From positions 1 to 24,188 of IMG/VR virus record IMGVR_UViG_3300037010_002200: a DNA stretch of 24,188 bases, one strand, 5' to 3'. Every line of letters starts with the position of its first letter. The first letter of the stretch is position 1. Positions 1 to 24,184 of this stretch are shown here, piece after piece. The position numbers and the translations under genes were made by a program. The DNA comes from a virus. A model generated the notes under the pieces. The model was not told where the DNA came from, did not search any database, and was given only the letters and a program-made list of their open reading frames with translations.

Positions 1-1825
1 TCGCTTGAATGTCATCGGCCGTCAAGTGTTCGGACAGCCCCAGCATGTCTTCGTTATTGCCTGTGATGATCAGGCGGATCGCCCCGATGATCGTTCCTTC
101 GTGATGATACCGCTTCTTAAACGGTCGTGACCTGGCCGCTATGAACTGCCGAAGCTCTGCCGTTCGCCCATGGCCGCGCCAATCCTTCGGCAGCTGTTCG
201 TCAGCAAGGATTAGAGGGCAGCGGCTGATCGAATCGTTCCAGTCCCCCAGGGCCGAGTCCAGGTCCGTCGGTTGATTCGTGGTCCAGAGTCGTGAGAGAC
301 CCAGAGCCAGGAGCGTCTTACCCGTCCCGGGGGCCCCCGTGAGCATGAGGGCAGCACAGATCTGGTCCAGATTCGTGACCTGGGCAATCCACGCGAGAAC
401 GTCCAGGAGATTGTCCCCCATGGCGATTTCCAGCCAGTCTGCCACGTCCTGATCCCATTGCGGCGTCAAGGGCCGAAGGGGGCACGGGGCATCGATAAAG
501 ACCCTGGCGGCCCCGTCATACCGTGCGAGCTGGGCCCGGAGATCCTGGACGTAATCCGTGGCCACGCTGCCGAATTCGCCCATGATGCTCGGGAGTCCCT
601 TTCGCATCCGTTCCCCGCCTTGACCCTCAGTCCAGAGTTCAACGCCGGCAGACGTGGCAGGGGCGAGATCCCGAAGTATCGCGTTCCCGATGTCCTTGTC
701 CGAATAGGCGGGGCTGTAGGTCGCTCCGGGGCCGAGAACGTAAAAGATACTGCCCCTTTGAATGACCCAGCGTTTGCGCAATTCGTCGCGCGTACAGGCA
801 CACAGGGCGGCCATGGCGTCCAGTTCCTGCTCCCGATAGGGGTAATCCCGTTCGGGGTCCAAATGCGCGAACGCCTGCCGGATCCTCAGCTTGCCTTCGG
901 CGATCGTGATCTGCTCCTGGGCGAGAGTCTCTGACATGACTTTCTCTGACGCCCTTTCGAGCTTGCCCCGCACGTCGTCAGCCGTGATCGGTTCTTTCCC
1001 GGGCATGACCTGCAACGACGTTGCAAAATGCTCAGCGATCGAAGCCGGGTCAGCGTCAGGCAGTTCCTTCGCGAGATCGTTACAGAGCTGGAAAAGGGCG
1101 TTATCTCGGTTTCCGGCATCGGCGAACGGATCGCCCTTGCATACCTTGCTGAGCATTTCGCCCATTTCCGAGCGGTATTGATCCCGGGACTTTTTCCAGC
1201 GCTGGGCCAGGCGTTCTAGCCTCTCACGGGTTACCTTTTCGGCCTTGCTCGCGCGACTATGCCCGAAGCTATGATCGGCAATCGTGGCCACGTCGAGGGG
1301 GCCGCCCTTGAACGTCACGAAGTGGCAGAGTCTGGGATCGGTCCCGGGCGGGGCCGAAGGGCCGAAGTAACAGCGGTTAATGTCTTTATCGTTCGGATCG
1401 TTCAACCCGCAAAAATGGGCCGAGAACGACAGCCAGAACGATTCCCACTCAGAGGGCTCGATCGGCCGAGAGAGACGCACACAGACACGGACCCGCCATA
1501 GCCCCTGGGCAGCGCTCTGGGGATGACGCCATGACGTATACAGAACGGCGTCCAATCCTTCCAACTTCTCGCATACGGCCGAGAGCTGGGCAGCCGTTAC
1601 CATGTCGAGATCAAGGACCCCGAACCAGACCCGAACGACGTTCTTTCCCACGCGGGGCAGACCCGGCCGGAATTCGGCAGGGGAGAACATGGGGATCTGT
1701 TTCTTATCGGCGACGTCGAAACGGTGAGGGCCCAGCCCGGATACGAAATCGTCCCAGGTCGTTACCAGAGGTTTCGGCGTCCCGTCCTTGGCATGGGCGA
1801 AGAGAGACAGTCTGATCTCGGTCAT
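1..1825 (-). CDS. Primase-polymerase / SF3-type helicase, C-terminus cut by window edge
   Basis: The reading frame is open from an ATG at 1825 to the left edge, about 608 residues with no stop. The N-terminal part resembles an archaeo-eukaryotic primase (AEP): a D72-L-D74 metal-binding pair follows a hydrophobic strand, and S98-W-R-H101 fits the AEP sxH motif. The C-terminal part has Walker A GAPGTGKT (497-504), Walker B ending in D542-E543 and a sensor-like ITGN with N590, typical of D5/SF3 phage helicases. The likely role is to synthesise primers and unwind DNA at the phage origin. Its ATG overlaps the methylase stop (ATGA), so the two are translationally coupled. The candidate origin lies about 1 kb upstream in the same transcription unit. 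The domain assignment rests on motifs read by eye; the helicase call is firmer than the primase call. Confidence 0.85.
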   Translation of the reverse strand, partial: MTEIRLSLFAHAKDGTPKPLVTTWDDFVSGLGPHRFDVADKKQIPMFSPAEFRPGLPRVGKNVVRVWFGVLDLDMVTAAQLSAVCEKLEGLDAVLYTSWRHPQSAAQGLWRVRVCVRLSRPIEPSEWESFWLSFSAHFCGLNDPNDKDINRCYFGPSAPPGTDPRLCHFVTFKGGPLDVATIADHSFGHSRASKAEKVTRERLERLAQRWKKSRDQYRSEMGEMLSKVCKGDPFADAGNRDNALFQLCNDLAKELPDADPASIAEHFATSLQVMPGKEPITADDVRGKLERASEKVMSETLAQEQITIAEGKLRIRQAFAHLDPERDYPYREQELDAMAALCACTRDELRKRWVIQRGSIFYVLGPGATYSPAYSDKDIGNAILRDLAPATSAGVELWTEGQGGERMRKGLPSIMGEFGSVATDYVQDLRAQLARYDGAARVFIDAPCPLRPLTPQWDQDVADWLEIAMGDNLLDVLAWIAQVTNLDQICAALMLTGAPGTGKTLLALGLSRLWTTNQPTDLDSALGDWNDSISRCPLILADEQLPKDWRGHGRTAELRQFIAARSRPFKKRYHHEGTIIGAIRLIITGNNEDMLGLSEHLTADDIQA

Positions 1826-2565
1826 CGTGTGCCCCGGAGAGTGGCCCAGCCCATGGGGCTGAACCTGTGAACGTAAAGCCGTTCGATCCGAGTCCTGCCA
1901 GCGCGATTCGGATCGAGTAGGCTCGTTTGTGCCCACTCGGAATAGATAACCCAGTCACTCGGGGGATTAGCCCCGGCCCCTTCCGAGACGAAGACAAGGG
2001 CCCCGCACTGGTGCCACCAGAGGGCATGGCTCCAGAACTCTGCCGGGTCGAAGGCCCCGACCCCTTTGTATCCCGTGGTCCCCTCATAAGGGGGATCGCA
2101 ATAGAGCAAGGTCCCGGCCGGGGGATCCGGGAGGTGTCTGTAGTCCCGAGAGTGGATCTCTAGATCGCGGCAGTCCCGGAGCTTTCTCAGGAGAGAGTTC
2201 CGGGCCCCGGCCGTGTAGTCCTGGCCCTTTGAATTCCGAGCGTAGCCCCCGGCCCACTTCCCCCCGAAGGAACAGCCGAACATGGCAAAGCCCGTCAAGG
2301 GATCGGCCGGGTTCGGGTTGGCTTTGATCCACTGATACTGCCCCTCTGAAACCACGGTCGGGGGATCCCAGCCCCCTTGCACGGCCCGGAGAGTGGAGAT
2401 CAAGGGCTGGCACGCATCCAGGGCCACGCGAGGGGCCTGAGCATGACGAACGACATTCAAGGCACCACAGAACACGTCCACGAACAGGGCCCCGGGCTTG
2501 CGCCAGTGCTCTATCGCCTGGACGATGGCCCGGCCGTGTTTCGATTTCCCGCCCAGGTATTGCAC
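1822..2565 (-). CDS. dam: DNA N6-adenine methyltransferase, D12/Dam class
   Basis: A 247-residue protein that begins with a YLGGKSKHG-type N-terminus and carries the S-adenosylmethionine site FVDVFCG (28-34), an acidic strand end ALD (48-50) and the catalytic motif DPPY (157-160). This order matches D12-class adenine methylases such as Dam, and the length is close to the family norm of 250-280. It transfers a methyl group to adenine N6. GATC is the usual target of the class and is strikingly frequent here, but the target cannot be read from the protein. No restriction endonuclease partner lies next to it, so it looks like an orphan methylase for self-protection or timing. The GTG start lies 3 bases after the regulator stop, and the stop overlaps the primase ATG. 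Confidence 0.9.
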   Translation of the reverse strand: MQYLGGKSKHGRAIVQAIEHWRKPGALFVDVFCGALNVVRHAQAPRVALDACQPLISTLRAVQGGWDPPTVVSEGQYQWIKANPNPADPLTGFAMFGCSFGGKWAGGYARNSKGQDYTAGARNSLLRKLRDCRDLEIHSRDYRHLPDPPAGTLLYCDPPYEGTTGYKGVGAFDPAEFWSHALWWHQCGALVFVSEGAGANPPSDWVIYSEWAQTSLLDPNRAGRTRIERLYVHRFSPMGWATLRGTR

Positions 2566-2568
2566 GGG

Positions 2569-2862
2569 TCAGACTCGGGATCCGGAAATGGGCCCCGTGT
2601 AAGACTCGGGGGGCGGGGGAATCGGCGGCAGGGCTTCCTTGACCCGAAACAGGTTCCCGGCCGGGACTTCATAGAAAAGGGCCAAGCGCATGATCTGGCT
2701 GGCCCTTGGCTCGCTCCGGGCTTGCTCCCAGTTGCTCACGGTGTCGGGGTCCACGCCCAGGGCTTCGGCGGCCTGTGCCTGCGTCTTACCGGCCCCCCGA
2801 CGCGCAAGGACAAGGGCCTGGGCAAACACGGGATCGGCTGCCTTGCTTCGGTGTCGGGGCAT
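2569..2862 (-). CDS. XRE/Cro-CI family helix-turn-helix regulator
   Basis: A 97-residue protein from the ATG at 2862, which has AGGG a few bases upstream; a TTG at 2898 would add 12 residues but lacks a better ribosome site. The central region has the classic XRE pattern: GKTQAQAAEALGVDPDTVSNWE for the helix-turn-helix, then a further helix around RASQIMRLALFYEVP. The C-terminus is short and proline-rich, with no peptidase or dimerisation domain recognised, so it is more Cro-like than CI-like. It is the first gene of the minus operon regulator-methylase-primase and lies next to the divergent control region. It is the best candidate in the window for the protein binding the 18-bp palindromes of the plus-strand promoters, but that link is inference. 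Confidence 0.85.
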   Translation of the reverse strand: MPRHRSKAADPVFAQALVLARRGAGKTQAQAAEALGVDPDTVSNWEQARSEPRASQIMRLALFYEVPAGNLFRVKEALPPIPPPPESYTGPISGSRV

Positions 2863-3047
2863 GGGCCCTAGTAGGAAGGAATTCGGGGCAGGCGTCAACG
2901 GGGAAAGGCTGCCCCGGGCGAATCTTAGTTTTCCAGGGTACGTAAGGCAGCCGGCAGAGATTCGGCGCGCGCTAGTCGTGACCAGCAGACCGTTGGACAG
3001 GGGCTTAGAACTCCTCCTGAGTACCCCCTGATTTCTTCGATCTGTCC

Positions 3048-3076
3048 TACATCCTGATACTTATCAACTTTGTCAA
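3048..3076 (-). promoter_or_regulatory. Promoter for regulator-methylase-primase operon
   Basis: Reading the minus strand, TTGACA (3076-3071) is followed by a 17-base spacer and GATGTA (3053-3048). The -35 is a perfect sigma-70 consensus and the -10 is weak. The spacer holds a small inverted repeat, TGATA-N2-TATCA (3055-3066), which could be an operator. It points at the XRE regulator, leaving a leader of about 180 bases. A run of seven T (minus strand) sits just upstream of the -35. Confidence 0.55.
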
Positions 3077-3149
3077 AAAAAATCAGTTTCACTCTGTGGT
3101 CACTGTCCGAAAGGGGTTCTTCTGGATAAATCCTCGGGAATCAAAGGCG

Positions 3150-3177
3150 TGGACACTCTCTGGACAGCCTCTGGACA
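3150..3177 (+). repeat. Three TGGACA iterons with 11-bp period
   Basis: TGGACA occurs at 3150, 3161 and 3172, so the copies sit on the same face of the helix. The flanking bases are also similar: TGGACACTCTC, TGGACAGCCTC, TGGACAGCTCC. A further isolated copy is at 2994. The array ends about 17 bases before an AT-rich segment, as origin iterons often do. A tandem regulator-binding array is the alternative. Confidence 0.6.
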
Positions 3178-3180
3178 GCT

Positions 3181-3357
3181 CCCGGAGCTGGTCAAGGAAT
3201 TATTTATTAATCAACCTTTAATTGATTTCCTGCCCTCTCCCGGCCGGGTCTAGCCCTGGTCACGCCCCGTCATGTGGGACAATGTAGTCTGGTCACGCTC
3301 ATGACCAGCTGTCACTGGTGGGATAAGGTGGGACATGCCCAGCCCCGGAGCTGGTCA
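3181..3357 (+). repeat. 14-bp direct repeat pair and CTGGTCA motif family
   Basis: CCCGGAGCTGGTCA occurs at 3181-3194 and again at 3344-3357. Its second half belongs to a wider family: CTGGTCACG at 3256, 3289 and 3351. A short inverted pair, GGTCA and TGACC, is at 3291-3306. The copies bracket the AT-rich block, which suggests binding sites of one protein on both sides. Confidence 0.55.
3194..3228. other. AT-rich segment, possible DNA unwinding element
   Basis: About 35 bases with only a handful of G or C stand out sharply from the GC-rich surroundings. They contain a 6-bp inverted repeat, AATCAA (3209-3214) and TTGATT (3222-3227). The position between the iterons and the GGTCA repeats fits a melting region of an origin. 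Confidence 0.5.
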
Positions 3358-3385
3358 CGACCCCGATCACAGATCACGATTTCGG

Positions 3386-3414
3386 TTGACGCTACGTCAG
3401 AGCTGTCGTATTGA
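3386..3414 (+). promoter_or_regulatory. Operator-promoter P1
   Basis: TTGACG (3386-3391), a 17-base spacer and TATTGA (3409-3414). The imperfect palindrome TACGTCAGAGCTGTCGTA (3393-3410) fills the spacer and the first bases of the -10, so a bound repressor would block RNA polymerase. It is the first of five related copies and the only one without a terminator hairpin directly upstream. The leader GGCTCACCGAAAGGAA (3418-3433) is shared with P2. Confidence 0.75.
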
Positions 3415-3441
3415 TCGGGCTCACCGAAAGGAATCAAGGCC

Positions 3442-3786
3442 GTGCCCAATACATTGATCCCCCGAGTAGAGATCCTGGCGTCCCGGGTCGTGCTTCATAA
3501 GCCGAGCACTTACCAGATCAAGGCTGCCGCGAAGGCGTTCAGGGCCCTCACGGGCGAGAAGCCCACGATCGGGATCCAGGGCTTCTTCCCCCCGAATGCG
3601 ATCTATGGGCTCCTGGGGCAGTACCCCGCCGGGCTTGACCTTCGCCCCACGGGGTCCACGGCTTTCGCCCCCTGCCCCGTGATAAAGGTCGGGACCACTT
3701 ACCTGACGGTGAAGCTTCGGACGGGGGAAGAAGATCTGATCCCGGCCCGTGGTTCGGAGATCGAAGTAACCCTGGAAATGCCCTAG
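3442..3786 (+). CDS. Hypothetical small protein, paralogue of 7043-7351
   Basis: A 114-residue protein of unknown function from a GTG at 3442, with AAAGGA about nine bases upstream. It is the only gene between promoter P1 and the terminator at 3793. It shares blocks with the protein at 7043-7351: a helix followed by FRALTGEKP (FEALTGAYP in the other), and a C-terminal DLIP motif followed by an alternating hydrophobic strand. There is no signal peptide, membrane segment or catalytic motif. As the first plus-strand gene beside the origin and under the strongest-looking control region, it may be an early host-takeover protein, but this is a guess. Confidence 0.7.
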   Translation: MPNTLIPRVEILASRVVLHKPSTYQIKAAAKAFRALTGEKPTIGIQGFFPPNAIYGLLGQYPAGLDLRPTGSTAFAPCPVIKVGTTYLTVKLRTGEEDLIPARGSEIEVTLEMP

Positions 3787-3792
3787 TCTGCC

Positions 3793-3821
3793 GGGCCCCG
3801 GGATAAATCGTCCCGGGGCCC
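3793..3821 (+). terminator. GC-rich hairpin between cassette genes
   Basis: An 11-bp perfect stem, GGGCCCCGGGA (3793-3803) with TCCCGGGGCCC (3811-3821), and a 7-base loop. Only two T follow before the -35 of P2 starts at 3822, so the terminator and the next promoter abut. Without a T-tract termination may be partial. Confidence 0.65.
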
Positions 3822-3850
3822 TTGACCGTGCGTCAGCTCTGCCGTACCTT
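3822..3850 (+). promoter_or_regulatory. Operator-promoter P2
   Basis: TTGACC (3822-3827), a 17-base spacer and TACCTT (3845-3850). The operator copy TGCGTCAGCTCTGCCGTA (3829-3846) is the most degenerate of the five. The leader GGCTCACCGAAAGGAA (3854-3869) is identical to that of P1 and carries the ribosome site for the next gene. Confidence 0.7.
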
Positions 3851-3877
3851 CACGGCTCACCGAAAGGAACCCGACCG

Positions 3878-4291
3878 ATGAAAATCACGATCGAAATGCT
3901 GCCCCTTCTGAATATGCTCCTGGAGCAGGACCCCGACCTGGGGAAGGCCGTCCAGATCGCTTTCGAGCGACGCACGCGCCACTGGTCCGATCTGCTGTCG
4001 ATCCCTGCCACGGTCCGGGCTGCCGCCCCGAAGGGCGTCAAGGCCGTGGACGGGGGCGAGATCGCGAACCACGTGGAAAGCCCCCTGGTGGTCATGCTCC
4101 AGAAGCTGGGCAGCTACTTAGCCGATTCTCCGAAGGGCGGCAGGTACAGCCCCGCCCAGGTCCGTGAAGCGCTGGGCGTCAAGGCGGGGGATGAAACGTT
4201 CAAGCGCGCGCTGGCCCAGCTCCTGGCCGAAAAGAAGATCAACGCCGAAGGTGGGGGCCCGGCCCGGAGATACTGGGGGGCGGGGAAGTGA
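3878..4291 (+). CDS. Hypothetical protein with C-terminal winged-helix-like domain
   Basis: A 137-residue protein from the ATG at 3878, with AAAGGA upstream. The N-terminus is helical (LLNMLLEQDPDLGKAV). Residues from about 90 read like a winged helix-turn-helix: YSPAQVREALGV, then ETFKRALAQLLAEKKI, then a glycine-rich wing ending RRYWG. A DNA-binding role is plausible but the target is unknown. It is the first gene of a five-gene operon (to 5093), and its TGA overlaps the next GTG start. It is not a known repressor family as far as I can tell. Confidence 0.7.
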   Translation: MKITIEMLPLLNMLLEQDPDLGKAVQIAFERRTRHWSDLLSIPATVRAAAPKGVKAVDGGEIANHVESPLVVMLQKLGSYLADSPKGGRYSPAQVREALGVKAGDETFKRALAQLLAEKKINAEGGGPARRYWGAGK

Positions 4292-4518
4292 GGGCCGCGA
4301 TCCTCGCGTTCCTGCTCCTGGCTTTCGGGGCAGGCCGTGCGGCCACGTCCTGCCCCGACCCGGAAACGTGCGGGCCTGACCCCATCGAAGACGCCGGGGC
4401 CGATACCGTTCAAGGGCTGGGCAGTGGACCCGCCCCCGCCCCGACGTCTTTTCCCCCGTGCTCGATCGATGCCGGGTATCCTTGCTGGGTCGATTCGGGA
4501 GCAGGGGGCGGGAAATGA
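4288..4518 (+). CDS. Small secreted Cys-containing protein
   Basis: A 76-residue protein with a clear signal peptide: MRAAILAFLLLAFGAGRAA, with probable cleavage near residue 19. The mature part is rich in Pro, Gly and Asp, with four cysteines (22, 28, 58, 66) that could form two disulphides outside the cytoplasm. The GTG start overlaps the upstream stop (GTGA), so translation is coupled. No known family is recognised. An exported small phage protein could alter the host envelope, for example to block superinfection, but nothing in the sequence proves this. Confidence 0.6.
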   Translation: MRAAILAFLLLAFGAGRAATSCPDPETCGPDPIEDAGADTVQGLGSGPAPAPTSFPPCSIDAGYPCWVDSGAGGGK

Positions 4519-4543
4519 CATGCGATCAAGGGAGTTCTCTGAC

Positions 4544-4753
4544 ATGAAAACGAAATCGGTTAGCTACGGGCGCACGATCGAGCTGGGCAAGTTTGGCCGG
4601 GGCCATACGCAAAAGGTCTGGTTCGGTCACGAAGTGGAACGCGAAGAAGGGGAAACCGAAGAACAATGCATGTCCCAGCTCCGGGCCTGGGCCGATGTCC
4701 AGGAAGCCAAGGAACGCAAGGCGTGGAAAGACGCCGGGGGGCGTGAGCCTTGA
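4544..4753 (+). CDS. Hypothetical small charged protein
   Basis: A 69-residue protein from the ATG at 4544, supported by GGGAG about ten bases upstream; an in-frame ATG at 4520 would add eight residues with no good ribosome site. The N-terminal half looks like beta strands (SYGRTIELGKFGRGHTQKV); the rest is a highly charged helix. No family is recognised. The stop overlaps the TTG start of the next gene. Confidence 0.55.
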   Translation: MKTKSVSYGRTIELGKFGRGHTQKVWFGHEVEREEGETEEQCMSQLRAWADVQEAKERKAWKDAGGREP

Positions 4754-4938
4754 ACCGGGCTCAGAAGCGCACCCAGCGCCGGATCCGCCGGGCTATGAAA
4801 GCCAAGCTGGAAGAAGCCCGGGAGCATTACCAGGCTGTGGTCGTGATCTTGAATGAGACTCGGGACGAACGGGACCACTACCAGGAGGCGACGATCGATC
4901 TGAATAAAGAGATCGATCGGTTGAAAGGCAGGCCGTGA
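4750..4938 (+). CDS. Small basic coiled-coil protein
   Basis: A 62-residue protein from a TTG start that overlaps the previous stop (TTGA). The first 20 residues are strongly basic (RAQKRTQRRIRRAMKAK). The rest has heptad-like spacing of hydrophobic residues, so it is likely a helical coiled coil. The combination suggests nucleic-acid binding or an adaptor. The unusual start codon makes the exact N-terminus uncertain. Its stop overlaps the next GTG. Confidence 0.55.
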   Translation: MNRAQKRTQRRIRRAMKAKLEEAREHYQAVVVILNETRDERDHYQEATIDLNKEIDRLKGRP

Positions 4939-5093
4939 ACCCGATCACGTTCTGGACCCTGCAATTCCTGGCGGGGTCCGTGCTCGAATCCCTGAGCGTG
5001 CTCGAATCCCAGAGCGTCAAAGCCCCCCTGGGAAATATGGCACTATCGGGGCAGACAACGCCGGCAGCGACGGAAGCTGGCCGGGGCCCTTGA
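4935..5093 (+). CDS. 52-residue coupled small protein with tandem repeat
   Basis: A GTG at 4935 overlaps the preceding TGA and opens a frame of 52 codons ending in TGA at 5091-5093. The N-terminus MNPITFWTLQFLAG is hydrophobic but short for a membrane segment. The middle is a duplicated six-residue unit, VLESLS VLESQS, encoded by the 18-bp tandem repeat. It is supported only by coupling and by the similar GTGAACCCGATC start context of the gene at 9079; it may not be functional. Confidence 0.4.
   Translation: MNPITFWTLQFLAGSVLESLSVLESQSVKAPLGNMALSGQTTPAATEAGRGP
4980..5015 (+). repeat. 18-bp tandem repeat inside small gene
   Basis: Two adjacent 18-base copies (4980-4997, 4998-5015) beginning GTGCTCGAATCCC and differing at one base. 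The length is a multiple of three, so the reading frame is kept. Confidence 0.8.
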
Positions 5094-5130
5094 CCGCGCC
5101 AGCCGGCGAAGAACCCTAGCCCCACGACCC

Positions 5131-5155
5131 GGGCCCCTGCTATGCTCAGGGGCCC
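5131..5155 (+). terminator. 9-bp hairpin ending directly at a start codon
   Basis: GGGCCCCTG (5131-5139) pairs perfectly with CAGGGGCCC (5147-5155). The loop CTATGCT contains a -10-like TATGCT (5141-5146), and the GTG of the next gene follows at 5156 with no gap. There is no T-tract. It could end the upstream operon, or, if transcription comes from upstream, hide the start codon. Confidence 0.5.
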
Positions 5156-5710
5156 GTGGTCCCCCTCGAATACAACCCTTCAGAGCCATGGGCCCGGCAG
5201 CCCTTCGACACCGATCTGGCGTGGGCGTGCTTCCAGCTCTATCTATCGCTGGCCATCCCACGGCGTCTGGTCGATCTCGTAAAGTCCCCCGGCTGCCCTC
5301 TCTCATGGGGGCAGCTCCAGACCATAGCCTGGGAAGATGGCTGGGCCGATCGAGCGAGGCGCTGGGACTCTCACCTGGACGCCCTCCGATTCGCCACGAT
5401 CGAAGAAGTGACCCGCGAAGACGCGAAGGCACGGGCCGAGAGACATGGGAAGCTGTCGAGAAAGCTCCAGACTTTAGGGGAGCACGAACTGGACAAGTGG
5501 ATCGGTGTAGCCTCACGGGCAGACGGAATGCCGGGGCTGGTCCAGGTCAAGGACGTGATTCGGCTTATCGTTCTCGGAGTAAAGACGGAGAGACTGGCCC
5601 TGGGCGAATCGACCGATAAGATCGAAACCGGCCCCGATCTCTCGGCCCTAAATATCGATCAGCTCCGGGCCCTTCGGGAGCTTCAGGAAGCCGCCGAATC
5701 GAAGGCTTGA
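5156..5710 (+). CDS. Putative small terminase-like DNA-binding protein
   Basis: A 184-residue protein from a GTG at 5156. The first half follows a pattern seen near phage terminases: a helical segment (LAWACFQLYLSLAIPRRLVDLV), an HTH-like stretch, then DGWADRARRWDSHLD. A long charged helix follows, then ERLALGES and an acidic C-terminal tail with LSALNIDQLRALRELQEA. This layout suits a small terminase that binds DNA and recruits the large subunit, but the large subunit is not nearby, so the call is tentative. The start codon abuts a 9-bp hairpin, and a TATGCT nine bases upstream could give a leaderless message. Confidence 0.45.
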   Translation: MVPLEYNPSEPWARQPFDTDLAWACFQLYLSLAIPRRLVDLVKSPGCPLSWGQLQTIAWEDGWADRARRWDSHLDALRFATIEEVTREDAKARAERHGKLSRKLQTLGEHELDKWIGVASRADGMPGLVQVKDVIRLIVLGVKTERLALGESTDKIETGPDLSALNIDQLRALRELQEAAESKA

Positions 5711-5736
5711 ACCCCTGCCCCGGGCCGTGATAGCCT
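5707..5736 (+). promoter_or_regulatory. Promoter for a near-leaderless message
   Basis: TTGAAC (5707-5712), an 18-base spacer and TAGCCT (5731-5736). The -10 ends seven bases before the ATG at 5744, so the transcript would begin at or next to the start codon. No ribosome binding site is present. The -35 overlaps the stop of the upstream gene. Confidence 0.45.
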
Positions 5737-5743
5737 GGGGATC

Positions 5744-6466
5744 ATGTCTAAAGCCTCATTCGTTCGCGTGGTCGCTGCCTTCGTGGCCGCGATCAATATC
5801 ACTCATGATCTTGACGGTGACGGCCTGGCGGCTGCCCCCGCCGAGTGGGTTCACCTGCCCGGAGCCACGGGATCCACGATCACGATCGAGGATATGTCTG
5901 GCCACTCGGTCATCCTCACGTCAACGGATCAGGTCACGTCCTGGCGTGTCACCTTCCGGAAGATCACGGCAGCTTCGGCAGCCTTCCAGTTCGGGACCGG
6001 CCCCGGCCCGATGGGGCAGGGCGCGAAAGGGGATCAGGGGGGCGTCGGGGATCCCGGTCTGGTCAGCATGGTTCTCCCGATCACGACGGCGATCCCGGCC
6101 GGGACCGATCTCCCGGAGATCGTCCTGGGAACGAACGGGGGCGGGTCCAATCTCACGATCCCGGCGCTGGGGATCTCTTTCGAGGGCGGGGCCCTCACGG
6201 CCAGCGATACGAACTACCTGACGATCACTTTCTTGATCCGGGACGCCGCGAACGCGAACCCGGTCACGCTCGGGACGCTGGTCACGAAGATCACGGGAGG
6301 CACGGGCAACTGGGCCGGGACCGTGGGCACGAAGCAACAGGTTACCGTGACCGGGGGCGGGGGCGTGGTCACGCTGCCCCCCGGTTACTCGCTCCGAATG
6401 AAAACCGCTCACAGCGGATCCGGGGCAATCCTGCCCGTCGGCTTTTTCGAGGCGCTGACGTCCTGA
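5744..6466 (+). CDS. Collagen-like virion-associated protein
   Basis: A 240-residue protein with three parts. Residues 1-83 are beta-rich with an acidic HDLDGDG segment. Residues 84-104 are a short Gly-X-Y run (GPGPMGQGAKGDQGG). From about 108 a Thr/Gly-rich beta domain follows, like the heads of trimeric phage fibres or decoration proteins. The same collagen-plus-beta-head plan occurs in the gene at the right edge. It is probably exposed on the virion, although it is encoded away from the tail operon, on the other strand, among accessory genes. There is no ribosome site; the -10-like TAGCCT seven bases before the ATG suggests a leaderless transcript. Confidence 0.55.
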   Translation: MSKASFVRVVAAFVAAINITHDLDGDGLAAAPAEWVHLPGATGSTITIEDMSGHSVILTSTDQVTSWRVTFRKITAASAAFQFGTGPGPMGQGAKGDQGGVGDPGLVSMVLPITTAIPAGTDLPEIVLGTNGGGSNLTIPALGISFEGGALTASDTNYLTITFLIRDAANANPVTLGTLVTKITGGTGNWAGTVGTKQQVTVTGGGGVVTLPPGYSLRMKTAHSGSGAILPVGFFEALTS

Positions 6467-6484
6467 TCGTGGTAGTGATCCCGG

Positions 6485-6505
6485 GCCCCGATTCGGGGCT
6501 AAGGT
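6485..6505 (+). promoter_or_regulatory. Hairpin plus -10 element before lipoprotein gene
   Basis: A 6-bp stem GCCCCG / CGGGGC (6485-6490 and 6494-6499) is followed at once by TAAGGT (6500-6505), which ends seven bases before the ATG at 6513. The -10 spacing is the same as at 5731. No good -35 is visible, so promoter strength is doubtful. Confidence 0.35.
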
Positions 6506-6512
6506 GATCACC

Positions 6513-20696: not shown

Positions 20697-22019
20697 TCAG
20701 ACGGAAAGAGCGCCCTTGATCACGACCGTATGAATCGCCCCGGCCAGCGTGGCCGAGAACGTGATCCCGGGCAGACGTCGCGCGGCTTTGTCTGCCGTGG
20801 TCACGTCCTTGATCTTCGGGACCATGACCACGGGGGCCGGCGTCTCTGCCAGGAAGGTGGCCTGAATCCCGAGATCCAGAATTGACATGATCAGAGATCG
20901 GATGGTCTCTGCCCCGGAATCCGTCATCGGGATTTTATCCCGGCTGGCCAGCGCGGCGATAATCGCTTCCTGGATTCGGGCATAAAGCCAATCCGTCCCG
21001 ACCACGACGTCAGTATATCCACCGTCGGGGTCCTGCCCCCATTGCGTCACGTTCCAGCCGCCCAGGATCGTGTAGGTGTTCAGCCGCTTCGTGGTCGCTG
21101 CCGTCTTCGCTGCCCCGCCCAGGCTGTCGACCGTGATCCCCTTCAGGGTTTTGAAAGCCCACGAAGCCGAACCCGGATCGGTCGGGAGCATTCGGCCCAG
21201 CCACGCTGCCGCCGAATTCGACAGGAGTTCTTTGTAAGACCCCAGAACTTCGGTCCTGGCGTAGGAAGCCGCTTTCAGAGACGAGCACACGTCACTGGTA
21301 ACGAGGGCTTCCAGCACGTCTTCGTCAGACGTATTGAAAACGGCGATCTTGCGCCGGGCTTCGATCCAGGCCGCTGCCGCCTCGATCACGGTCTGGGGCG
21401 AATGGTCTGCCGTCACGGCGTACCATGATGTTGCGTCAGCGGCTTCGATGGCCGTCAGGTCTGCCACGATGCCGGGATCGGCCGTCACGTCCTTGATCTT
21501 CAGCTCCGAAGGAATCGGGAGCTTCCGAAGATTGAACAGCTTCCCCGCTGCCGCGGTAACCGTGATCTTCGTTGTGGCTGAAACGGCAGTCACGCTGGCG
21601 ACGGGATCGATCAACGCTGCCAGGGCCGTGCAAATCGTGGCTACCGTGGCCCCCGTCAGCACGGTGTAATCGATCGCCGTGACCACGCCCACGGGGTCCA
21701 CTACCTCGAAAGTGTAGTGATATCCGGCCGTCGTGATCGTGGGCGTGAGTTCCACGATCTGGGTATAGGCGTGCGTTCGTTTCCCGAGCACGATCCGCTG
21801 GGGCTTCGGGTTCTGGCTGAACGCCGTCTGGGCCATCCGATAGGCTGGATCCGTGACGGCGAATCCGTCATCCGTCAGCTCAGAAGGGCTGGTGTATACC
21901 TTCGTGATATCCGGGATCGTCAAATGGTACGCCAGACAGAGCATGGTCCCGAAGCCTGCCCTGGTGGCGCTTGACGATTCGGCCGTGATCTGTAGATCGA
22001 TTACTTCATCCAGAGACAT
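20697..22019 (-). CDS. Tail sheath protein, DUF3383 family
   Basis: A 440-residue protein from the ATG at 22019, with AAGGA upstream. It matches the DUF3383 sheath family: an N-terminal IDLQITAESSSATRAGFGTML, DPAYRMAQTAFSQNPKPQRIVLGKR, the central ADATSWYAVTADH and RRKIAVFNTSDEDVL, and a C-terminal LYARIQEAIIAALASRDKIPMTDSGAE. It forms the contractile outer layer. The short internal length compared with T4 sheath (about 660) fits simple myoviruses. A 64-base gap upstream holds a -10-like GATAAT (22052-22047) that could be an internal promoter. Confidence 0.9.
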   Translation of the reverse strand: MSLDEVIDLQITAESSSATRAGFGTMLCLAYHLTIPDITKVYTSPSELTDDGFAVTDPAYRMAQTAFSQNPKPQRIVLGKRTHAYTQIVELTPTITTAGYHYTFEVVDPVGVVTAIDYTVLTGATVATICTALAALIDPVASVTAVSATTKITVTAAAGKLFNLRKLPIPSELKIKDVTADPGIVADLTAIEAADATSWYAVTADHSPQTVIEAAAAWIEARRKIAVFNTSDEDVLEALVTSDVCSSLKAASYARTEVLGSYKELLSNSAAAWLGRMLPTDPGSASWAFKTLKGITVDSLGGAAKTAATTKRLNTYTILGGWNVTQWGQDPDGGYTDVVVGTDWLYARIQEAIIAALASRDKIPMTDSGAETIRSLIMSILDLGIQATFLAETPAPVVMVPKIKDVTTADKAARRLPGITFSATLAGAIHTVVIKGALSV

Positions 22020-23401: not shown

Positions 23402-24184
23402 TCAGGTGAGAGTTACCTGAGCGTAAATATTCGCATATTCAGCGTCAGGGAACGAAACAAAACGAGTGGAGAACGTAGCCCCGGCAGGCATTTTGATCTG
23501 GATTCTGAAAACGTATGTTCCGGCAGCCAGAGACAATGGCCAGACCAGGGCGCAATTGCCGGAAAGACGGGCAGGGCCAGCCACGGTCGATCCCGAGATA
23601 TAGGCCAGCCGGAAATTCGCCGATCCAGCCCCTGCCGTCAACGTAGCCACGGCCGATCCGAACACGGTAACGAATGCGCCACCAGCCGGGACGACAACCG
23701 AGATCGTCAGAACGTCTACATACGTTGTGCTGGTGAAGTTCGTATCCGCGGCCAGGACCGATCGATATGACGTGACGAAATCATTACCAGCTGGGCCCGT
23801 GGCTCCCGTGGCTCCCGTGGCCCCGGTAGCTCCCGTGGGCCCCGTTGCTCCCGTTGCGCCGTTCGTCCCGTTGGATCCGGCTGCCCCGATAACTCCCGTG
23901 GGGCCGGTCAACCCCGTTGGACCCGTGGGGCCTGCCGGGCCCGTTGCTCCCGTGGCACCGTCAACGCCGTTGGATCCGGCTGCCCCGGTAGCTCCCGTGG
24001 GGCCGGTCAACCCCGTTGGACCAGTTGCCCCGGTAGCTCCCGTGGGGCCTGCCGGGCCCTGAGCGCCAGTCCCCCCGCCCCCGCCCCCGCCCCCGCCCCC
24101 GGGAGATCCTACCCACGAAAAGGGTCTGGCAGCGACGCCGGGAGAACCTGCAACGCGCATTGCCAGGCCAGCCACCATGACCAC
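23402..24184 (-). CDS. Collagen-like fibre protein, N-terminus possibly beyond edge
   Basis: The frame covers 260 residues from a GTG at 24184 (or ATG at 24178), but it stays open to the window edge, so the true start may lie outside. After a Gly-only run comes a Gly-X-Y domain (from about residue 40 to 130) made largely of GATGPTG-type triplets with Thr and Pro, then a beta-rich C-terminal head of about 125 residues ([21 protein letters not shown] onward). This is a trimeric phage fibre plan. It precedes the head-tail connector genes, so it may decorate the head or neck. The codons contain tandem DNA repeats that can vary in number. Confidence 0.75.
23869..24021 (-). repeat. 99-bp-period direct repeats in collagen-like domain
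   Basis: A block of about 54 bases at 23869-23922 recurs at 23968-24021 with only two or so mismatches. The 99-base offset equals 33 codons, or eleven Gly-X-Y triplets. Both blocks encode the AAGSNG interruption and its flanks, so the domain has grown by an in-frame duplication. Confidence 0.75.
24071..24100. repeat. CCCCCG hexanucleotide tract
   Basis: About four and a half copies of a C5G unit encode the poly-glycine hinge before the collagen domain. The unit is six bases, so slippage adds or removes two glycines without shifting the frame. The G-rich strand could form a quadruplex. Confidence 0.8.

Follow-up and report, generated by a model that had tools for sequence, protein, structure and literature searches.

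SaPI Rep binds short iterons through its C-terminal domain (PMC7581432), and PICI origins carry two sets of iterons placed around an AT-rich region (PMC6092414). In SaPIbov1, EcCICFT073, and their kin, the short iterons cluster beside a self-loading helicase module that is often fused to a primase (PMC6092414, PMC7581432), and the origin lies immediately 3′ of rep or pri-rep. In satellite phage P4, a single protein, alpha, combines a Toprim-type primase, a helicase, and a winged-helix origin-binding domain that acts on repeats (PMC4234260). In the PLE of Vibrio cholerae, lineages differ jointly in the DNA-binding domain of the initiator and in an intergenic origin with iterons (PMC8263062); the iterons of PLE1 are three semi-palindromes of ~30 bp, and its initiator is of the RepA_N type. 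Finally, pRN1 encodes in one operon a small transcriptional repressor (orf56) followed by a primase-helicase with a winged-helix C terminus (orf904) (PMC4234260), and it lacks iterons and depends on a stem-loop 3′ of the gene. The phage locus described here resembles each of these systems in part.

The window analyzed is the whole 24,188-base virus record IMGVR_UViG_3300037010_002200, a fragment that truncates the primase gene at base 1. According to its ORF list, a divergent intergenic region (Table 1) separates rightward early small genes from a leftward operon that encodes, in order from the repeat array, an XRE regulator, a D12 methyltransferase, and the primase. The initial annotation, which proposed a replication origin here, described an operon facing the array and encoding a primase-helicase. 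The operon does encode this protein, but it runs leftward, away from the array.

Table 1. Coordinates of the features in and around the divergent intergenic region of the window
Feature	Position	Strand	Remarks
Divergent intergenic region (whole element)	2863-3441		Based on ORFs and on two relatives with an orthologous region
Primase-helicase (only the 5′ part; gene truncated at window end)	2-1936	-	Weak primase and DUF5906/AAA matches
D12-class adenine DNA methyltransferase	1822-2565	-	
XRE/Cro-CI type helix-turn-helix regulator	2569-2862	-	Likely start ATG at 2862
GAAAACTAAGATTC element before XRE, leftward promoter or leader candidate	2920-2933	-	Conserved in G001
Left pair of TGGNCA sites	2979-2999		TGACCA 2979-2984, TGGACA 2994-2999; start to start 15 bp
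C-tract element ACCCCCTGATTTCTTCG	3023-3039		Similar in G001 (CCCCCCCGATTTCTATA) and, on visual inspection, G003 (CCCCCCTGATCTGCTTCG)
Least stable 100-bp segment of window, candidate unwinding element	3031-3130		Nearest-neighbor stability, whole record
Single TGGTCA site	3097-3102	+	
Phased array, 11-bp register	3150-3177	+	TGGACA at 3150, 3161, 3172
TGGTCA site	3189-3194	+	17 bp after third array copy (17 bp in G001 too)
AT-rich block, 78% A+T	3196-3231		Missing in both relatives
Right-hand TGGNCA sites	3256-3357		3257, 3290, 3302 (minus), 3352 (CTGGTCA context)
Second repeat type GTGGGACAATGTAG	3274-3287	+	Similar GTGGGATGATGTAG in G001, GTGGGGGCATGTAG twice in G003
Rightward promoter-like site TTGACG-N17-TATTGA	3386-3414	+	CGTCAG..CTGNCG palindrome in spacer
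Small protein, predicted winged-helix C terminus	3878-4291	+	In both relatives, a homologue is the first rightward gene

When viral contigs were scanned for the primase, the gene order XRE/D12-methyltransferase/primase was found in only two further phages. These are G001 (IMGVR_UViG_3300035661_000106; 46,095 bases), whose primase is 86% identical to that of the window, and G003 (IMGVR_UViG_3300010371_000015; 44,984 bases), first found through its polymerase and with a primase that is 59% identical. Both records were reversed into the orientation of the window, and coordinates are given accordingly. Compared with G001, the XRE of G003 is at 54% over the matched part. A further fragment, G002 (79% identity in the primase C terminus), ends before the intergenic region. 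All three phages are metagenomic records, with no cultured relative in the collections searched. A nucleotide search of positions 1 to 8000 of the window against 50,697 phage records gave no match, nor did the primase protein against phages and plasmids. The primase and the tail sheath likewise had no match in genome contigs, so that neither a host genome nor a prophage copy came to light. Elsewhere, the window encodes a collagen-like Gly-X-Y repeat protein at its end (23402-24184, minus strand) and a short cysteine-rich lipoprotein-like ORF (6504-6917, plus strand), of a style that we take to be common in Myxococcota and a possible hint of the host.

Within the window, we observed the three TGGACA copies at the exact 11-bp spacing reported initially. 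Three or more directly repeated sites in helical register are a feature of iteron-type origins, and the register is the same in both relatives. The intergenic region holds 11 TGGWCA sites, where the rest of the window would predict 0.8 and Markov sequences give 0.65; TGGACA occurs four times and TGGTCA seven times, each against an expectation of 0.33. The two words belong to one family, TGGNCA. Triples of TGGNCA at 11/11 spacing occurred in 0 of 200,000 Markov-1 versions of the region. The cluster comprises about a dozen sites spanning 2979 to 3357 and is larger than first described. The repeated motif CTGGTCACG was recovered at 3256, 3289, and 3351 and on the minus strand at 2977. The 14-bp direct repeat of the initial annotation, CCCGGAGCTGGTCA, is exact at 3181 and 3344, but it amounts to a TGGTCA site with a shared flank; since it is present in the window only, it was rejected as a functional pair.

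The same TGGNCA cluster was detected at the orthologous place in G001 and G003. An unbiased gapped-word search ranked TGGNCA first for joint enrichment in the three regions (product of Poisson p, 3e-16), and its density peaks at the intergenic region in each record; the other densest repeats of the records appear to fall in coding sequence when their positions are compared with the ORFs. The best match to the array in each record lies at 3150 in the window (0 mismatches), 21080 in G001 (1 mismatch), and 28028 in G003 (0 mismatches), at distances of 287, 292, and 335 bases, respectively, from the start of the region beside XRE. The three sites read TGGCCA/TGTTCA/TGGCCA in G001 and TGGCCA throughout in G003. 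TGGCCA is the predominant form in the regions of the relatives (7 copies in G001 and 6 in G003) and has no copy in that of the window, which contains 14 elsewhere. The center base differs across the whole set of sites, being A/T in the window and mostly C in both relatives. Seven window sites could be aligned with G001; a hand count gave agreement of their outer letters (T, G, C, and A) at 28/28 positions in a region that is 51% identical, and five of the seven differ as TGGWCA versus TGGCCA. Absence of the repeats from relatives that keep the primase had been named initially as evidence against an origin. The exact TGGACA triple is indeed absent from them, but TGGCCA occupies the 11-bp register in its place, and the origin reading is not refuted. 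The second repeat type, also written GTGGGNNNATGTAG, occurs twice in G003 (L039, minus strand, about 980-1020), as does GGTGGTACTAAACAAT, each copy of which adjoins a TGGCCA site.

Taken together, these comparisons establish that the array is conserved and that its register and position are under selection; most likely, it serves for protein docking. A long noncoding gap with promoters would be expected to show low duplex stability anyway, and the repeats might then be due to chance, or the region an ordinary AT-rich promoter gap without special function. We consider this highly improbable. The sites are enriched over shuffles and over the remainder of each record, and phages whose primases are only 59% identical keep them at one position and in one register, which already contradicts such a reading.

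To the left of the array by 120 to 150 bp lies the least stable 100-bp segment of each record, at 20933-21032 in G001 and 27878-27977 in G003 (for the window, see Table 1); in G003, it is barely ahead of the next segment (133.2 versus 133.5). An adjacent region of low stability is typical of iteron-type origins and is also expected of a promoter region. In the window and G001, a pair of sites with a conserved 15-bp spacing (2979/2994 and 20907/20922, respectively) is followed by the AT segment and then by the array, such that two sets of sites flank the segment. No TGGNCA site was found left of the low-stability segment of G003, which is without a flanking pair; two site sets around an AT-rich segment, the layout described for SaPI and PICI origins, occur in just two of the three phages. 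The initial annotation had instead pointed to an AT-rich block after the array. This block is present in the window, where it contains most of the least stable 35-mer (3194-3228), but it lies to the right of the array and occurs in the window alone, and it was rejected as a conserved unwinding element. As the block is missing in the relatives, an origin would need a different melting segment.

A strict sigma-70 scan found no promoter. By comparing the three records, we found a family of rightward promoters, TTGAC (or TGGAC)..ACGTCAG.NCTGACGTAT, with a palindrome in the spacer. Its members in the window are at 3386, 3822, 6979, 7404, and 8554 (plus strand), with four in G001 and seven in G003. 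Several of these sites are preceded by a T-rich terminator-like run. The CGTCAG..CTGACG palindrome looks like an operator common to early genes. On the other side, the element GAAAACTNAGATTC precedes XRE in the window and G001 (reversed, 20859) and recurs 3′ of the primase in G001 (17236, minus strand); the element (2920-2933, minus strand, in the window) represents a possible second, leftward class of promoter with a poor -35 element.

These promoter positions bear on an alternative in which the array serves as an operator. XRE dimers would bind the TGGNCA sites cooperatively and balance the leftward replication operon, including their own gene, against the rightward early genes, with no origin function. 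We regard this reading as the main and a strong rival, although less likely than an origin. XRE comes first beside the array in each of the three phages, and phage repressors usually have their site clusters restricted to the divergent region of their own gene. Moreover, the recognition helix of XRE (DPDTVSNWEQ in the window, DPATIANWEN in G001, and DESTIANWER in G003) changes in parallel with the A/T versus C site center, three phages being too few to tie the site change to any one protein. However, the window sites overlap no identifiable promoter: the nearest ends 28 bases before the rightward -35 element, and all keep a distance of at least about 46 bp to the leftward GAAAACTAAGATTC element, a promoter candidate itself. 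Lying upstream of the promoter elements and not inside them, the sites weaken a simple repressor-operator reading and, at these distances, make simple promoter occlusion by XRE unlikely. In the relatives, a TGGNCA word does lie on the -35 element of this rightward promoter (G001, 21280; G003, 28294), which may be incidental. The other palindrome (ACGTCAGNNCTGACGT), inside the -35/-10 spacers of the rightward promoters, would be a more natural repressor operator, and a 12-site field of 380 bp is large for a simple repressor. No tyrosine integrase or large serine recombinase was matched in G001 and G003, which leaves a role for XRE as a lysogeny repressor without support.

In addition to XRE, two phage proteins could bind the sites: the primase-helicase and the small winged-helix protein of ORF 3878. 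The structure model of the primase, built from four sequences, is poor (mean pLDDT, 45.6), with the better parts of the C terminus at about 55 to 76. In this low-confidence model, the C terminus (residues 670 to 798; this part of the window's own primase falls outside the record) has the outline of a winged helix. It aligns with residues 449 to 562 of SaPIbov1 Rep (8tch; Z 6.7, rmsd 3.5, 99 aligned) and also with TcpK (Z 7.2) and other winged-helix proteins; these Z values may mean only a common arrangement, and middling values are frequent among winged helices. With such a candidate domain, the primase-helicase would resemble P4 alpha, a likeness limited by the Toprim type of the P4 primase. 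In P4, crr is a separate site.

For the ORF 3878 protein, a C-terminal winged helix is predicted confidently (pLDDT, about 76 to 88), and homologues lie directly beside the region in G001 and G003. If this protein docked on the array, it would activate one or both early promoters from upstream or act on them as an antirepressor. The position of the TGGNCA sites upstream of promoters is like that of activator sites, and the left pair stands about 46 bp or more upstream of the leftward element with its poor -35. Nevertheless, the site register is kept although the protein is poorly conserved (28 to 33% identity), another ORF intervenes in the window between the gene of this protein and the region, and winged helices often bind proteins or RNA. 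We therefore judge such a role improbable.

We interpret the region, with close to even confidence, as an iteron-type replication origin merged with a divergent early control region. The data do not decide between origin and operator, and the origin is favored on the basis of the recurrent segment of lowest stability, the full replication operon nearby, the separate operator-like palindrome, and the analogy with SaPI/PICI and P4. From the typical origin plan of the initial annotation, the array, a low-stability segment in all three records, and a possible winged helix on the primase are retained; the AT-rich block and the 14-bp repeat are not. Arguing against an origin are the low stability and AT richness also expected in promoters, the lack of left-hand sites in G003, and the position of the array 5′ of the operon. 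GC skew, a check suggested initially, follows gene direction and is uninformative on the origin.

As an alternative location, we considered the region 3′ of the primase, as in pRN1, which the present operon resembles in encoding a small regulator ahead of a primase-helicase whose winged helix comes here from a weak model. This location was rejected: no repeat array and no conserved stem-loop were found there in G001, G002, and G003 (DNA fold z-scores, -2.1, -1.3, and +1.0, respectively), and the window lacks that place. Directly 3′ of the primase is a tRNA or tRNA-like gene (L043:10718-10791; L024:784-855), with an odd anticodon in G003, a tRNA-Gly in G002, and in G001 a T-arm-like stretch not called as a tRNA.

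Under the origin reading, a phage initiator would dock at the TGGNCA sites; the most likely candidate is the primase-helicase of the leftward operon, acting through its proposed C-terminal winged helix. Several subunits would bind one face of the helix through the 11-bp register at 3150-3177, which would bring the helicase onto the DNA and melt the low-stability segment (3031-3130) that separates the left pair from the main array. Synthesis would next be started by the primase and the family-A polymerase that the phage itself encodes; in G001, the leftward gene block encodes the primase-helicase, a family-A polymerase, a PD-(D/E)XK nuclease, and an SNF2-like helicase. In proposing this scheme, we infer protein binding at the sites, the identity of the protein, and the start of replication here. 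Such an origin would be like those of SaPIs and PICIs in its short iterons clustered round an AT-rich region beside a helicase module, and like SaPIbov1 in that the Rep C terminus of the latter is among the structural matches of the weak primase model. Unlike in those elements, the array lies 5′ of the operon, in a divergent early region, and it is carried by a tailed phage that appears autonomous and encodes its own family-A polymerase. Because the position 3′ of rep is not shared, we do not classify the array as a SaPI/PICI member.

The difference in site center raises a further possibility, which we consider rather unlikely: that the iteron set was respecified in concert. Position and 11-bp register would have been kept while the center base changed from A/T to C or the reverse, switching between palindromic and directional sites along with a change in the binding protein, in phages whose primases are still 86% identical. 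The PLE offer a precedent for an initiator domain and an origin that change jointly (PMC8263062), although the sites here are 6 bp long and held in 11-bp register, unlike the PLE1 iterons.

If the region is an origin, it represents a short-iteron origin of the SaPI/P4 kind in uncultured tailed phages without relatives in the phage, plasmid, and genome collections searched, and the three phages provide a three-point series of docking sites changed as a set, so that how the specificity of an initiator or regulator can change without loss of a dozen sites becomes testable. If it is instead an operator array, it would define the regulatory logic of phages that possess, in addition, a distinct promoter family of striking uniformity.
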